From Acidobacteriaceae bacterium (GTDB lineage: Bacteria; Acidobacteriota; Terriglobia; Terriglobales; Acidobacteriaceae): a stretch of DNA of 35,599 bases. Location: NCBI GenBank assembly GCA_025355385.1, contig JANXZS010000090.1, positions 1 through 35,599 on the forward strand. Direction: 5' to 3'. The position numbers and the translations under genes were made by a program. Positions 2,275 to 11,932 of this stretch are shown piece after piece (within the stretch, counting starts at the first letter, position 1; each line of letters opens with the position of its first letter). The notes below the pieces were generated by a model. The model did not search any database, was not told the DNA's origin, and saw only the letters and a program-made list of their open reading frames with translations.

Positions 2275-2385
2275 GTAAAGCATTTCTCCTGCCGCTGTGC
2301 AGCCGTTGCATTGTTGCGATTAGCCGCCCTTTGATGGGACGGCTACATCGTGTCTGTTCTCCTCTACTCTCCCGGGGAGAACGCG

Positions 2386-2646
2386 CTAGCGGTTGCCTCC
2401 CACGGGCGGTTGAGGACCCCTGGCACCCTCAAGAGCTTCGGCCAGCTTATGAAGCTGTTCGGCAGCGACTTTGAGCGCGCTGGAGGAATTGCGTCGAACC
2501 TGGGGCACCACTTCATCATTTAGATAGGCAACCACACGCCTCAATTCTTCTTCGGCGCGAGGGATGGCGGTACCGATGTGCTCATCGAGTTTGCGGCCCA
2601 GGTCTTCCAGGCGGCCGCGCAGCGGATCTTGGGAGTTGCCGGTCAT
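2386..2646 (-). CDS. Small hypothetical coiled-coil protein (86 aa)
   Basis: I do not recognise a named family. The product is hydrophilic and almost entirely helical by composition. Heptad-like Leu/Val spacing runs from about residue 10 to 75 (LEDLGRKLDEHIG and ALKVAAEQLHKLAEALEG), and the tail is Pro/Gly-rich. It has no signal peptide and no cysteine. A good AGGAG ribosome-binding site lies 8 nt before the ATG at 2646, which supports real translation. It sits just upstream of the RlpA-like gene on the same strand, 111 nt away, so it could be co-transcribed with it. Its composition fits a small cytoplasmic oligomer or phasin-like helical protein, but the function is unknown. Confidence 0.7.
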   Translation of the reverse strand: MTGNSQDPLRGRLEDLGRKLDEHIGTAIPRAEEELRRVVAYLNDEVVPQVRRNSSSALKVAAEQLHKLAEALEGARGPQPPVGGNR

Positions 2647-2964
2647 GGGAAAATCTCCTATTGTCAGCCAAGTTTCATGTTGCTATTCATTATCGCGGTT
2701 TTCCGCTCCGTCTCGGCATCCTGTATTGCAAGGTGCCGAGCTGATTACTCGCAGTCCCCGGCACGTTCCGAGGAAGGACCAGCGAGGTCCGCGAGTGTAA
2801 GGTTTTAGCTTCCCGAGTTTTGCAGAATGCAGGGACAAAGGCTGTCAATCTGCGGAGTTGTCGCTGTTCGCTGACGAGGCTCACCATCGGCGCCCCTATT
2901 TTCGCCGTTCGACCATAAGTGCTTTGCTTTCAATTAAGGGCTGCATACGATTATCGTGGCAGGT
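2647..2964. other. Intergenic region without recognisable gene
   Basis: Divergent promoter region between the small coiled-coil gene (minus) and the radical SAM gene (plus). Short open frames on both strands lack ribosome-binding sites and protein-like composition. Apart from the candidate promoter annotated separately at 2965-2993, I see no RNA gene, riboswitch or repeat here. Confidence 0.5.
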
Positions 2965-2993
2965 TTGACGGAACTTTATTAGGTGGTTTACAA
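2965..2993 (+). promoter_or_regulatory. Candidate sigma70 promoter for the radical SAM gene
   Basis: TTGACG (2965-2970), a 17-bp spacer, then TTACAA (2988-2993). Transcription would start near 3000 and leave a leader of about 100 nt before the ATG at 3103. This is an assignment by consensus only. Confidence 0.35.
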
Positions 2994-3102
2994 GTGCTTC
3001 CCACCACCCGTTGGACGTTGTACCTGTCGTCCCTGCAGCGTGCGACTCCCGTAGCAAATCGCACAGTAGCGCAGGTTCTGATCACTGAGGAGAAAAGAGA
3101 GA

Positions 3103-5193
3103 ATGTCGAAGACGGTGAAGTACGCCGAGAGAGCGGTAACCTACGCAGCCAAGGGCGCGTGGGCAGTCTTTGAAAGGCTGAATACCATCAGCCCGAATCC
3201 TTCGTTTACACCGAAGTGGTCCGATAAGCCGCTATTGAAGTCTTACCAGAAGGAGAAGCCTCCTCTAGGTTGGCCACGTACCACCGATTCGCTCTGCCCC
3301 AAGTGCGTCCCTGAGATCCGCAAGCAGATTCTCGATGGCAAACTGCCTCATGAAGTCCTTCTGAACGAGAAGGTTGGCGAAATCAAGGCGCAGATTATCG
3401 AGCGCGACGGCCAGATCCTCATGGTGAAGGATTGTCCCAAGCACGGTCATTTTGAAGACTTGATGTCGATGGACACCGAGTTTTTCAAGCATCTGGAAGA
3501 GGTTTTCCCGGGTCGAGACATTCGCGCGCACAATGACGAAAAGCTTCACAATCATGGCACCTCGACGGTTACCCACGGTCGCGGTTCGGTATTGACCATC
3601 GATCTGACTAACCGTTGCAACATGATGTGTGATCCCTGCTTCATGGACGCGAACCAGGTCGGGTTTGTGCATGAGCTGATGTGGGATGAGATAAAGACCA
3701 TGCTGGACAATGCCGCGCAGATCAAGCCGAGGCGCCAGATGAGTGTGCAGTTTTCCGGTGGTGAGCCGACGCTTTCGCCCTACTTCCTGGATGCGGTAGC
3801 CTACGCTCGCAAGGTGGGTTACAACTCGGTTCAGGCTGCCAGCAACGGGATTGAGTTTGCCAAGTCGAAGGAGCTTTGCCGCGGAGCTGCCGAAGCGGGG
3901 CTGCGCTATGTGTATCTGCAATTTGACGGGATAGGCAATGCCGCCAACTCGCACCGTAAGGTAGGCAATCTGTTTGACGTCAAGATGCAGGCGATCCACA
4001 ACCTGCATGAAGCCGGGGTGGACATTGTTCCGGTGACGACGATCATCAACGGCATCAACAATGAGCAGGTCGGGCACATCATCCAGTTTGCGCTGGACAA
4101 TCCCAAAACGATCAGCTTCCTGTCGTTCCAGCCGGTTTCATTCACGGGCCGCGATGAGGACATCACCGACGAGCGTCGCGTGGCGCAGCGCTACACGCTC
4201 AGCCACATGGCACACGATGTCAAGAACCAAACGGGACTGGGCGAACCGGTTCGCGACTGGTTCCCCATCAGCTTTATGAGCACCTTCTCCGATTTCGGGG
4301 ATCTGATGCACGGACCGGCGGCAGACTGGGGCCAGCTAAGCTGCGGTTGCCACCCCAATTGCGGCATCGGCATGGCGCTGATGGTCGATAAGGAAACGAA
4401 GGAAGCTGTTCCGGTGACTGCGTTTTTGAACGCGGACAGGCTGGCCAAAGACGTAGCCAAGATCAACGACGCCGCTCGCGGCAAGTTCCTCTCCGGCCTC
4501 GGTATCACCTTGGCCATGCTGCGCAACTATGATCCTAGGAAGTCGCCAACTCACTTCAGCATCATGGATATGCTGAAGAAATTTGACAAGTGCTTTGGCG
4601 TAACGGGTCGAAACTATGGCAGCGTAAAGGGCGACCGCACGATGGAAGATATCAAGTTCCGTCGCGCCGACCGCTGGAATTTCCTGTTCATCGCAGGCAT
4701 GTGGTTCCAGGATCTATTCAACTACGACTTCCGCCGCACCGAGCAATGCATCATTCCGTACGCCACGCAGGAAGGCGAGATCAGCTTTTGCGCCTACAAC
4801 ACGGGTGTGGGCTGGCGCAACATCATCGAGAAGATGCACATGACCGCGACTCTGACCAAGTGGTACGAAGAGCACGGGCGTCATGAGATTTTCGCGGGTG
4901 GCAAGAAGGTTGGCATGGCATCGATGGAGCATAACCTGGTGCTCAACGACGAGCATGTTCGCGCCGCAGCCAATGATTCGCTGGACAAGCTTGGCATCGC
5001 CAAGAACTCCCGCGAAGAGAAGCTTCGCGCGCGAGGAGATAAACTGAAGACGGATGCGGAGAACGCCCAAATGGCGCAACTCTACCGCGAGCACGTCCTG
5101 GGCGAGAAGCCGACCCCCGGGATGGTTTCGCTGAGCTCCATTGCACCGGCTCCCAAGCCAGCCCCCAAGGCTGAAGAGGTGATGGGGGACTAG
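3103..5193 (+). CDS. Radical SAM protein of the Tes/MJ0619 type; candidate membrane-spanning (tetraether or diabolic-acid) lipid synthase
   Basis: A 696-residue radical SAM enzyme with a strong purine-rich ribosome-binding site (GAGGAG) before its ATG. The CxxxCxxC cluster motif is C172, C176, C179, and the SGGEPT glycine motif is at 218-223. What marks it out is extra metal-ligand architecture. At the N-terminus are CPKC (65-68) and CPKHG (111-115). C-terminal to the core are C414, C416 and C420 (SCGCHPNC), C497, C549 and C563. Archaeal tetraether lipid synthase (Tes) has this general plan: a rubredoxin-like N-terminal site, a radical SAM cluster and auxiliary iron-sulfur clusters. Tes joins two lipid tails by a C-C bond. 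Acidobacteria are known to make iso-diabolic acid and related membrane-spanning lipids, so a bacterial counterpart is a reasonable inference. The C-terminal 60 residues are charged and Pro/Ala-rich. The gene is monocistronic, ending in a strong terminator. The radical SAM call is certain; the lipid substrate is not. Confidence 0.9.
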   Translation: MSKTVKYAERAVTYAAKGAWAVFERLNTISPNPSFTPKWSDKPLLKSYQKEKPPLGWPRTTDSLCPKCVPEIRKQILDGKLPHEVLLNEKVGEIKAQIIERDGQILMVKDCPKHGHFEDLMSMDTEFFKHLEEVFPGRDIRAHNDEKLHNHGTSTVTHGRGSVLTIDLTNRCNMMCDPCFMDANQVGFVHELMWDEIKTMLDNAAQIKPRRQMSVQFSGGEPTLSPYFLDAVAYARKVGYNSVQAASNGIEFAKSKELCRGAAEAGLRYVYLQFDGIGNAANSHRKVGNLFDVKMQAIHNLHEAGVDIVPVTTIINGINNEQVGHIIQFALDNPKTISFLSFQPVSFTGRDEDITDERRVAQRYTLSHMAHDVKNQTGLGEPVRDWFPISFMSTFSDFGDLMHGPAADWGQLSCGCHPNCGIGMALMVDKETKEAVPVTAFLNADRLAKDVAKINDAARGKFLSGLGITLAMLRNYDPRKSPTHFSIMDMLKKFDKCFGVTGRNYGSVKGDRTMEDIKFRRADRWNFLFIAGMWFQDLFNYDFRRTEQCIIPYATQEGEISFCAYNTGVGWRNIIEKMHMTATLTKWYEEHGRHEIFAGGKKVGMASMEHNLVLNDEHVRAAANDSLDKLGIAKNSREEKLRARGDKLKTDAENAQMAQLYREHVLGEKPTPGMVSLSSIAPAPKPAPKAEEVMGD

Positions 5194-5242
5194 GACCAGC
5201 CGTATGCGAACGCGGCGTTGCCGCAAAGGCAAGGGCTACCAC

Positions 5243-5278
5243 AAGAGGCTACCTTCGGGTGGCCTCTTACTTTTTTTT
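5243..5278 (+). terminator. Intrinsic terminator with UUCG tetraloop
   Basis: Eleven-base arms AAGAGGCTACC (5243-5253) and GGTGGCCTCTT (5258-5268) pair with one G-U wobble around a TTCG loop closed by C-G, the exceptionally stable UUCG type. A run of eight T residues follows at 5271-5278. It lies 50 nt after the radical SAM stop codon. Confidence 0.92.
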
Positions 5279-5332
5279 GCCACAACACTTTTTGCCATGG
5301 TACTTTGGCGATTCCGCATCCAAACTAGAGGC

Positions 5333-5794
5333 ATGCTGAAACGAGCGATGGTTGGGCTGATGGCGGCTGGGTTACTGGGCTCGATGGCGGGTTGCACGAT
5401 CTATCCGGAAAAGCGGACTGCGACGCTCGCCTCGACGACCAGTGCAGAGCAGTACGAGCGACTGTACTGGAAAGCCGTTCAGAAGGGCGATTGGCAGCAG
5501 GCCGCCGCGCTGCAGGGGCCAAGCATTGTTTACGCAACACGGCAGGGCGAGCTCGTCGACGGCGCGCGCTGGCTGTCCTTGCTCCAGGGTGCGCCGCCGA
5601 AGGAATACTTGATTGGCGCTGTGCAGGTGAAGCCTCAGGGTTCCGATACGGTGGTGAGCTATTTCGCGTCGGTCACAGATGGCAGATCGACGACGCCGAT
5701 AGAACTGGCTGTTGTCAGCCTGTGGCAACAGGTGGGAGCCAACCTGATCATGGTGGCGCATAGCGAAACCCCCCGTGCCGGGTCTGCAAAGTAG
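5333..5794 (+). CDS. Small lipoprotein, possibly NTF2/SnoaL-like fold
   Basis: An open frame extends upstream to 5204 but runs through the preceding terminator, so I place the start at the ATG at 5333. That gives 153 residues and a textbook lipoprotein signal (MLKRAMVGLMAAGLLGSMAGC, lipidated C21). The mature part has a helix-rich start (AEQYERLYWKAVQKGDWQQAAAL) and then alternating strands. That pattern resembles SnoaL/DUF4440-type proteins, in which a small alpha+beta cone often carries no enzymatic residues. I cannot identify catalytic residues. The ribosome-binding site is weak (ACTAGAGGC). mutY starts 28 nt after its stop, so the two may share a transcript. The function is unknown; its location would be membrane-anchored in the periplasm. 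Confidence 0.75.
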   Translation: MLKRAMVGLMAAGLLGSMAGCTIYPEKRTATLASTTSAEQYERLYWKAVQKGDWQQAAALQGPSIVYATRQGELVDGARWLSLLQGAPPKEYLIGAVQVKPQGSDTVVSYFASVTDGRSTTPIELAVVSLWQQVGANLIMVAHSETPRAGSAK

Positions 5795-5822
5795 GACCGG
5801 GACGACCAGTTAGAATCAGCAT

Positions 5823-6878
5823 ATGACGGGGGAGAAATGGACCGCTGCCGAGCGCAAGAAGTTTCGCTCGAAGCTGCTGAGCTGGTTTGGCGATCATCGC
5901 CGGGATCTCCCCTGGCGCCGTACTCAGGATCCTTACAAAATCTGGGTCTCCGAGATCATGTTGCAGCAGACGCGGGTTGCGGCGGTTCTGGAGCACTACG
6001 CGGAGTTCCTGCGCCGCTTTCCAACCGTCACGACCTTGGCTGATGCACCAGAGGCAGACGTGCTTGCAGTATGGAGTGGCCTGGGCTATTACCGTCGCGC
6101 ACGGATGCTCCACCGGGGCGCGCAGGCGGTAGCAACCGAGTATGAAGCGGCGCTTCCGGCCACGGCAGCGGCGCTGGTCGCGCTGCCTGGCATCGGCGGA
6201 TACACGGCGGCAGCGATCGCTAGCATAGCCTTTGGCGAGCCTGTCGCTGCGGTGGATGGCAACGTTGAGCGCGTTATTACACGCGTGGCAGGGCTGGCAC
6301 CGGGCAGCGGCGAGGATCGCTGCTTGCAGACCCGCATTCGACAACTAGCCGAGGAACTCTTGGATCATGAGCATCCCGGGGATTTTAATCAAGCCATGAT
6401 GGAGCTGGGTGCGACGCTCTGCCTGCCGCGGAATCCGGTCTGTTCGCGGTGCCCCGTTGCCCATCTATGCCAGACGCGCGGAGAGCATCCTGTTGCGCCC
6501 CGCAAATCCATGGTGCGTCGGGACGTCGCCTGCGCCCTGATCGTCGCGACGACACCACCACAATGGGCGCGGGTGCTGCTGCAGCAGAGGCCCGCCGAAG
6601 CTACGGTGATGCAGGGCATGTGGGAGTTGCCGGAGATCGGCTCGGAGGGGCTCGACGCGGAGTCTGCGGAGATGATCGTGCGCCACGCCATCATGCAAAC
6701 AAACTACGTCGTGCAGGTGCACGCGATGAGTGCTGAGGTTTTTCCGCGGCATCAACTGAATCAGCACGTGGCATCCTGGATCGCGCTGGATGCGTTGTCT
6801 CTCATGCCGCTGACTGGTCTCACGCTTAAGGTGCTACGACGGGCGGGATTGATGACTGCTTCGCGCGGGCAGTCGTAA
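5823..6878 (+). CDS. mutY: A/G-specific adenine DNA glycosylase MutY
   Basis: MutY removes adenine mispaired with 8-oxoguanine, which prevents G:C to T:A transversions. The 351-residue product has the complete helix-hairpin-helix glycosylase core. Catalytic E44 lies in WVSEIMLQQTR, the hairpin LPGIGGYTAAA spans 121-131, and the catalytic aspartate D145 lies in VDGNVERV. The [4Fe-4S] cluster ligands C200, C207, C210 and C216 have the expected C-x6-C-x2-C-x5-C spacing. The C-terminal third contains the NUDIX-like 8-oxoG recognition domain, with LLQQRPAE and MQGMWELPE near 265-290. A GGGGGAG-like ribosome-binding site is in the region before the ATG, though the spacing is close. The length is normal. 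The gene may follow the small lipoprotein on one transcript. Confidence 0.96.
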   Translation: MTGEKWTAAERKKFRSKLLSWFGDHRRDLPWRRTQDPYKIWVSEIMLQQTRVAAVLEHYAEFLRRFPTVTTLADAPEADVLAVWSGLGYYRRARMLHRGAQAVATEYEAALPATAAALVALPGIGGYTAAAIASIAFGEPVAAVDGNVERVITRVAGLAPGSGEDRCLQTRIRQLAEELLDHEHPGDFNQAMMELGATLCLPRNPVCSRCPVAHLCQTRGEHPVAPRKSMVRRDVACALIVATTPPQWARVLLQQRPAEATVMQGMWELPEIGSEGLDAESAEMIVRHAIMQTNYVVQVHAMSAEVFPRHQLNQHVASWIALDALSLMPLTGLTLKVLRRAGLMTASRGQS

Positions 6879-11845: not shown

Positions 11846-11932
11846 GCCGGAGTGGCGGAATTGGCAGACGCGCGTGGTTCAGGTCCACGTACTCGCAAGG
11901 GTGTGGGGGTTCGAGTCCCTTCTTCGGCACCA
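11846..11932 (+). tRNA. tRNA-Leu (anticodon CAG)
   Basis: The class II tRNA is 87 nt with encoded CCA. Acceptor arm GCCGGAG (11846-11852) pairs with CTTCGGC (11922-11928, one G-U), then discriminator A and CCA (11929-11932). The D-loop has GAATTGGCAGACGC. The anticodon loop TTCAGGT carries CAG at 11880-11882 between CGTGG and CCACG, a variable arm follows, and the T-arm is GGGGGTTCGAGTCCC-like. It decodes CTG. No integrase or attachment duplication is visible next to it. Confidence 0.97.

Follow-up and report, generated by a model that had tools for sequence, protein, structure and literature searches.

Archaeal tetraether synthase (Tes, also GDGT-MAS; MJ0619) is a radical S-adenosylmethionine (SAM) enzyme whose chemistry involves two SAM molecules and a carbon-sulfur bond on a cluster. 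Its metal ligands comprise a rubredoxin-like site (C9/C12/C33/H36), an N-terminal [4Fe-4S] cluster held by C73/C77/C80 and a His, the CX3CX2C motif, and a C-terminal cluster with a labile Met439; Met439 and Tyr459 are completely conserved across 1000 archaeal homologues (PMC9433317; this and the other sources are cited from their available parts). Among bacteria, 456 Tes homologues have been suggested to make branched glycerol dialkyl glycerol tetraethers (GDGTs), with named examples in E. aggregans (32% identity), K. versatilis (42%) and S. usitatus (40%) (PMC8941075), and the available part of PMC11868695 states that none has been confirmed. We found no assay of a bacterial Tes homologue in the literature covered. 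Here we analyze P0001, a Tes-superfamily radical SAM protein of 696 amino acids, encoded (3103..5193, forward strand; ATG at 3103, stop at 5193) in a 35,599-nucleotide window that is one whole contig (C247) of an Acidobacteriaceae host assembly of 4.63 Mb in 321 contigs. P0001 belongs to an acidobacterial lineage without the N-terminal auxiliary cluster, and is probably a lipid-coupling enzyme that makes iso-diabolic acid on ester phospholipids, as judged from its sequence and modeled fold.

Sequence and structural relationships of P0001

The best homologue of P0001 in the PDB is the archaeal Tes (7TOL/7TOM, MJ0619), matched by phmmer with an E value of 1.3e-61 over residues 93-588 and with an identity of about 30%; the other four matches have E values of 1.7e-6 or worse, SkfB being the next at 1.7e-6. 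The NCBIfam Tes model NF045702 is the best-scoring of all models for P0001 (326.8 bits, and 326.9 in the search of the genome), and generic radical SAM families also match the core of the protein. An AlphaFold2 model of P0001, built on a 61-sequence alignment, reached a predicted local distance difference test score of 90.4. Foldseek with this model returned 7TOM and 7TOL first (E values of 3e-37 and 1e-35; next match, 1.4e-8), and comparison with 7TOM by VIA-align gave a Z score of 44.7 at 2.3 Å over 477 of 498 residues, almost all of the archaeal protein, with MoaA next at a Z score of 20.6. Because Tes-like sequences were part of the alignment behind the model, the fold does not count as evidence independent of the sequence. 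The original prediction, which took P0001 for a Tes-like candidate synthase of membrane-spanning lipids, is upheld as to family: Tes is closest in both sequence and predicted fold, and the catalytic residues of the C-terminal cluster are kept. Its caveat that the closest characterized homologue might act on a peptide or tRNA did not materialize.

Metal sites and catalytic residues

Residues were counted in 80 sequences of the window type from acidobacterial genomes, 79 of which have the columns of most residues discussed below. A fragment (L052) and the duplicate loci L104-L106 and L108 were left out, and groups A and B in these counts were defined by BLAST score against P0001. All gene features given below lie on the forward strand.

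The rubredoxin-like CX2C...CX2H site is formed by C65, C68, C111 and H114 (3295..3444), which align with Tes C9, C12, C33 and H36, are covered by the Pfam PF23545 zinc ribbon and are kept in 79/79 lineage sequences; MJ0619 C9 and C12 lie outside the aligned PDB stretch, and that half of the match was drawn from the motif and from clade B. The two halves of the site are separated by 42 residues in P0001 and by 20 in Tes. The radical SAM motif CX3CX2C, identified by Pfam and by alignment, consists of C172, C176 and C179 (3616..3639) and is likewise present in 79/79 sequences. On the SAM side, the loop Q343...S346...R350 (4129..4152) aligns with Tes Q268/S271/R275, a set of residues kept in 27 of the 28 lineage rows. 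In the C-terminal part, C420, within the motif C414-x-C416-H-P-x-C420 (4342..4362), aligns with Tes C338 and is found in 80/80 sequences. M533 (4699..4701) corresponds to the labile Met439, while C549, Y553 and C563 (4747..4791) correspond to C455, Tyr459 and C470; each of these four residues is present in 79/79 sequences. C338, C455 and C470, here C420/C549/C563, would be the ligands of the C-terminal cluster, as suggested by their conservation.

The cysteines of the radical SAM motif, the CPKC (65-68) and CPKHG (111-115) motifs and six C-terminal cysteines had all been placed correctly in the original prediction, which read the six as part of the Tes plan. That reading stands for C420, C549 and C563. 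The other three were rejected as counterparts of Tes ligands, having none in MJ0619: C414 and C416 are invariant in the lineage (80/80) and align with L and S of the archaeal enzyme, and C497 is not conserved (Cys in 16/80).

At the position of the N-terminal [4Fe-4S] site of Tes (3544..3585), P0001 has no cysteine, and H149 and H151 are conserved instead; in the lineage, H and S occupy the positions of C77 and C80 in 79/79 sequences. The motif GCPxxCGLCP, by which this cluster is recognized in Tes, is absent from P0001, which has HNHGTSTVTHGRGS in its place, a difference that had been missed. The claim of a multi-cluster plan as in archaeal Tes thus keeps three sites, which align with those of the archaeal enzyme, and loses the fourth, which is missing throughout the lineage. 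P0001 differs further from Tes in having a C-terminal tail and a predicted N-terminal helix (residues 3-27; 3109..3183). The hydrophobic moment marks the helix as amphipathic (ranks 3-7 of 678 for five windows), and it may be in contact with the membrane.

Phylogeny of Tes-like proteins

The tree comprised 56 rows, with MJ0619 as the sole archaeal row and with several long outgroup branches that leave the deeper order unsure. Clade A, the window type (28 rows, L259 included), forms one side of a branch at 100/100. Four rows of clade B (L053-L056), the acidobacterial Tes-like proteins with four sites, join clade A at 100/100, and clade B is paraphyletic. Clades A and B together with L256 are split at 100/100 from MJ0619 and the archaeal-like acidobacterial proteins L101 and L102. 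Clade B proteins (e.g., L053-L064) have the same catalytic residues as P0001, to which they are 31-36% identical, but keep all sites, including C73/C77/C80, in 16/16 sequences. Because clade A is nested in the paraphyletic clade B, the N-terminal cluster was most simply lost once, at the base of clade A. Outside clade A, the very long row L256 has D and A at two of the three N-terminal cysteines, possibly as a second loss or through misalignment.

Several relatives of P0001 deserve mention in their own right. The acidobacterial L101 and L102 are 46-48% identical to MJ0619 and more similar to it than to the other acidobacterial proteins, possibly as a result of gene transfer. L259 (G403:C6), an extra clade A copy that is 42% identical, has lost C338, C455 and Tyr459 and looks like a paralogue whose C-terminal cluster is altered or no longer functional. 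Five loci of the host match P0001 at an E value of 1e-3 or better, namely P0001 itself, L002, two TIGR04053 proteins and MoaA. L002, the other close homologue, keeps the N-terminal cluster and has Q and F at the positions of Met439 and Tyr459. It stands between Tes and TrsS, a radical SAM (seleno)protein of the same superfamily, and scores below the cut-off of both models (342.5 of 450 bits for Tes, 331.0 of 490 for TrsS model NF045646); the NCBIfam Tes score alone does not separate P0001 from L002 as the catalytic residues do. The gene for L002 (G000:C14, 1363-2946) overlaps another at 2939-3745 that matches a DVU_1556-type methyltransferase model below its cut-off, and the two may form a two-gene system. 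A search of plasmids gave no result, the five records found being 23-28% identical; the four haloarchaeal ones (H1-H3 and H5) are remote radical SAM homologues with 23-27% identity.

Distribution of the lineage and occurrence of iso-diabolic acid

Iso-diabolic acid has been reported in subdivisions (SDs) 1, 3, 4 and 6 of the seven SDs surveyed, and accounts for 20-40% of fatty acids across 17 cultures of Acidobacteria (PMC13274423). Six strains of Edaphobacter, from the family of the host, contain 11.8-30.4% (PMC11354219), and Chloracidobacterium also contains it (PMC12816986). Holophaga and Geothrix (SD8) were part of a related culture set (PMC5462960), and we infer from the available parts of PMC13274423 and PMC5462960 together that the SD8 strains are negative.

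P0001 is matched at an E value of 1e-30 or better, by proteins of any type, in 211 of the 396 Acidobacteriota genomes searched. All 44 listed members of the Acidobacteriaceae, the host included, carry the lineage (with a single match to P0001 in 39 of them), and none of the 20 listed non-matching genomes, which are accompanied by 165 further ones, is from the class of the host. Among the classes whose identity is partly inferred, the lineage occurs in 84 of 88 genomes of the SD4-like class (that of G096, Chloracidobacterium-like), in 29 of 60 genomes of the SD6-like class at an E value of 1e-100 (that of G125, Luteitalea-like), and in none of the 91 genomes of the Holophagae-like class (that of G027). 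The last of these has six weak partial matches (E values of 1.5e-33 to 1.6e-21; 27-31% identity) that resemble those of L002 and were not assigned to a type. A match of the 16S probe HoAc1402 hints that the class of G027 is Holophagae-like; as a general acidobacterial 16S probe it failed, matching 2 of 27 genomes, in f24 and f26 only. An acidobacterial 16S pattern found at least 80 loci, 50 of which were searched for P0001. Of the 50 genomes so reached, 47 match P0001, 46 at the score of the lineage, and L121, L150 and L193 have no match.

The distribution of the lineage agrees broadly with the reported occurrence of iso-diabolic acid. The tail-to-tail coupling of fatty acyl chains that the original prediction had called plausible is retained as a predicted activity, with the lineage present in groups where the acid is reported and absent from the Holophagae-like class.

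Four further observations concern individual genomes. E. lichenicola M8UP30 has a copy of the lineage and one divergent homologue (L253) without the Met and Tyr. In 26 of the 45 listed f22 genomes (Pyrinomonadaceae; SD4-like class), the copy of 64-72% identity is joined by another of clade A type, which is 51-54% identical to P0001. Two metagenome-assembled genomes (MAGs) labeled Verrucomicrobia and Acidimicrobiia (L147 and L153) have an acidobacterial-type 16S pattern together with the lineage at 81% and 74% identity, and are probably mislabeled. A MAG labeled Ca. Sulfopaludibacter SbA3 (L174 = G433) also carries the lineage; it shares its contig and coordinates with G373 (f25, class of G125) and was not used for SD3.

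Proposed reaction and alternative functions

Homology, predicted fold, conserved residues and distribution make tail-to-tail coupling of lipids very likely as the activity of P0001, and the synthesis of iso-diabolic acid most likely as its purpose; we infer its substrate, product, electron path and metal content. C172/C176/C179 would hold the SAM-cleaving [4Fe-4S] cluster, and the 5'-deoxyadenosyl radical would abstract a hydrogen atom from one phospholipid, at the terminal methyl of an iso-C15 acyl chain. The resulting carbon radical would be stored on a sulfur atom of the C-terminal [4Fe-4S] cluster (ligands C420/C549/C563 and the labile M533); another SAM would then activate a second lipid at its tail, and tail-to-tail joining would follow. 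The product would be 13,16-dimethyl-octacosanedioic (iso-diabolic) acid, ester-bound in tetraester or mixed lipids. An ester-bound product is predicted because PF09989, a PlsA/Ger domain, was not found in the host (the Thermotoga maritima control was positive; ElbD and Agps were not searched for), and because the host's two BcrAD/BadFG proteins come from open frames of just 378 and 355 amino acids. Electrons would still be fed or buffered by the rubredoxin-like iron (C65/C68/C111/H114), and the N-terminal cluster of Tes would be dispensable in the clade A enzyme. The likely substrates, bacterial iso-C15 acyl lipids, differ from those of Tes. Structurally, an iso-branched tail is equivalent to a phytanyl tail (PMC8941075), and 13,16-dimethyl octacosanedioic acid likely arises from tail-to-tail joining of two iso-C15:0 chains (PMC13274423).

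A number of points weigh against this assignment. P0001 does not reach the curated cut-off of NF045702 (450 bits) and is outscored on that model by L002 (342.5 vs. 326.8 bits). A cysteine at the position of C73, C77 or C80 occurs in 0/79 lineage sequences, and Asn108 of the SAM-loop network of Tes is D182 in P0001 in the PDB alignment, an Asn-to-Asp change. Since a defining metal site is absent and the score stays under the curated threshold, P0001 counts as a variant of Tes, not a strict Tes. The stem of clade A is long (1.2 changes per column), possibly reflecting a change of substrate. No match at 1e-100 was obtained for 31 of the 60 SD6-like genomes; the class identities of G027, G096 and G125 are partly inferred, and the genomes are related, so that the distributions of lineage and lipid are not made up of independent events. 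The published lipids of E. lichenicola are those of DSM 104462, and the genome with the lineage is M8UP30. Finally, the coupling in S. usitatus and K. versatilis could be done by the closer Tes homologues of these species, which are 40-42% identical to MA_1486 (PMC8941075).

P0001 might also couple lipid tails to a main product other than ester-bound iso-diabolic acid, either branched-GDGT ether lipids or a lipid with its own tails closed, the iso-diabolic acid then coming from another enzyme. Tes yields intermolecular and macrocyclic products alike (PMC9433317), a diether condensation with Tes homologues has been proposed for S. usitatus (PMC10087280), and branched GDGT goes up under oxygen limitation in E. 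aggregans (PMC13274423). We nevertheless consider this unlikely: the host has no PF09989 (with the ElbD and Agps routes left aside) and no second homologue with the Met and Tyr, and iso-diabolic acid is abundant in Edaphobacter, where, according to the available part of PMC11354219, its glycerol ethers were not detected. Nor do we expect that the acid is made by an Mss-type enzyme outside the reach of the P0001 query, with P0001 acting otherwise on a lipid tail. The case for it is that Mss of T. maritima is a bacterial enzyme confirmed by expression (PMC11604127) and that homologues occur in 11 of 97 acidobacterial MAGs from the Black Sea (PMC11868695). Mss (Thermotoga, Bacillota), compared here by description only, resembles P0001 in its proposed tail-to-tail acyl coupling and, unlike P0001, is described mostly from anaerobic producers. 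Its models are said to share the catalytic architecture of Tes (PMC13274423), so that a Tes-like query should find Mss, although a remote one could escape; the host matches at 1e-3 are confined to the five loci named above.

A radical SAM enzyme for a peptide, a pterin or another small substrate (a SPASM maturase, an HMPTM-like methylase or a TrsS-like protein) seems highly improbable. The core of P0001 does match generic radical SAM families, and its zinc ribbon PF23545 is named after HMPTM, which agrees with an earlier annotation that gave MJ0619 a methanopterin role, one that, by the available part of PMC9433317, could not be corroborated. Against a small substrate stand the near full-length match to Tes and the predicted fold, a TrsS score of 208.2 bits (cut-off 490), and the absence of the SPASM family from the three Pfam hits at an E value of 1; the peptide-maturase and TrsS readings were rejected on these grounds. 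In addition, no maturation gene, radical SAM partner or methyltransferase was found among the annotated neighbors, small open reading frames (ORFs) not having been screened. Synthesis of ester-bound iso-diabolic acid remains the most likely function of P0001.

Possible relation to aerobic growth

The Acidobacteriaceae, which belong to subdivision 1, live aerobically in soil. P0001 may represent a reduced, oxygen-tolerant tetraether synthase in which an exposed N-terminal cluster was dropped and two invariant cysteines were gained next to the catalytic cluster, and which would be the main maker of soil iso-diabolic acid; we put this forward tentatively, as an idea that we would not yet favor. 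Terminal-oxidase subunit I (E value of 1e-20 or better) was found in 33 of 35 clade A genomes, including the host with eight matches, compared with 13 of 25 genomes with only other Tes-like forms (Fisher p = 3e-4; 4e-4 by family, 33/35 vs. 5/12) and 15 of 20 genomes with neither form (p = 0.086); the genomes are related and the p values descriptive. The comparison was set out before it was run, and nine of the 44 lineage genomes had been left out before the results, hence 35. The group with other Tes-like forms (E values of 1e-30 to 1e-110) includes two genomes with archaeal-like Tes and some fragments; two of its 27 genomes were left out, G330 (fragments of the lineage) and G215 (a fragment, from a family with the lineage). 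The 15 of 20 genomes with neither form and the 5 of 12 oxidase-positive families in the other-Tes-like group count against the role of oxygen. Overall, the oxidase counts fit an aerobic form and do not single it out.

Gene structure and genomic context

A putative ribosome-binding site, GAGGAG (3087..3092), precedes the start codon of P0001, and an intrinsic terminator (5243..5278; pattern scan and fold energy) follows the stop codon. The strong terminator of the original prediction was recovered as a single site, an 11-pair hairpin at 5243-5268 followed by a T run, with a fold energy of -19.4 kcal/mol (z -4.73), which is above chance; the loose pattern scan by itself is not (1 site vs. 3.3 in shuffles). 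The promoter that had been attributed to the gene could not be substantiated. A sigma-70 scan of 2300-6000, which did not cover other promoter types, gave two sites, both within the P0001 gene (1.3 in shuffles), and none upstream of its start, and a sigma-70 promoter of its own was rejected as unsupported.

The gene sits alone, as had been noted, with a divergent ORF of 86 amino acids and a gene for an RlpA-like SPOR protein upstream, and genes for a DUF4440 protein and a MutY-like protein beyond the terminator. All four neighbors are common to only L006, from a congeneric genome, among 94 loci with flanks of 1.5-2 kb, and no conserved gene neighborhood around the lineage genes was established across these loci. 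Twenty loci of the host's family have one upstream ORF in common. In seven loci from other families (L041, L065, L069, L070, L076, L077 and L080), the lineage gene has a second radical SAM gene, HpnH-like by eye, no more than 2 kb away, and a protein resembling an Fe-S carrier (NfuA-like by eye) is encoded close to it in six (L045, L080, L083, L086, L090 and L091); the remaining flank clusters are smaller. Elsewhere in the window, a tRNA-Leu (CAG) gene is located at 11846-11932.

Implications

The general idea that acidobacterial Tes homologues make such lipids is published. We found no description of a Tes lineage without the N-terminal cluster, or of its distribution, in the open-licence literature (supplements excluded), and both the three-site lineage and its distribution appear to be new. 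The signature of the Tes Met and Tyr without GCPxxCGLCP sets this lineage apart, in metagenomes, from L002-like proteins as well as from four-site Tes, and P0001 offers one stand-alone candidate gene, with defined residues to alter, in a family that includes cultivable aerobes. Should the enzyme be active, Tes chemistry would not require all four metal sites; if the oxygen-tolerant reading is true, sp3-sp3 coupling of tails needs only three metal centers and can run in aerobes. Fossil relatives of membrane-spanning lipids serve as ancient thermometers, and under the oxygen-tolerant reading iso-diabolic acid would be the precursor of the branched-GDGT lipids used in palaeothermometry. Which enzyme makes acidobacterial iso-diabolic acid bears on which bacteria underlie the branched-GDGT temperature records.

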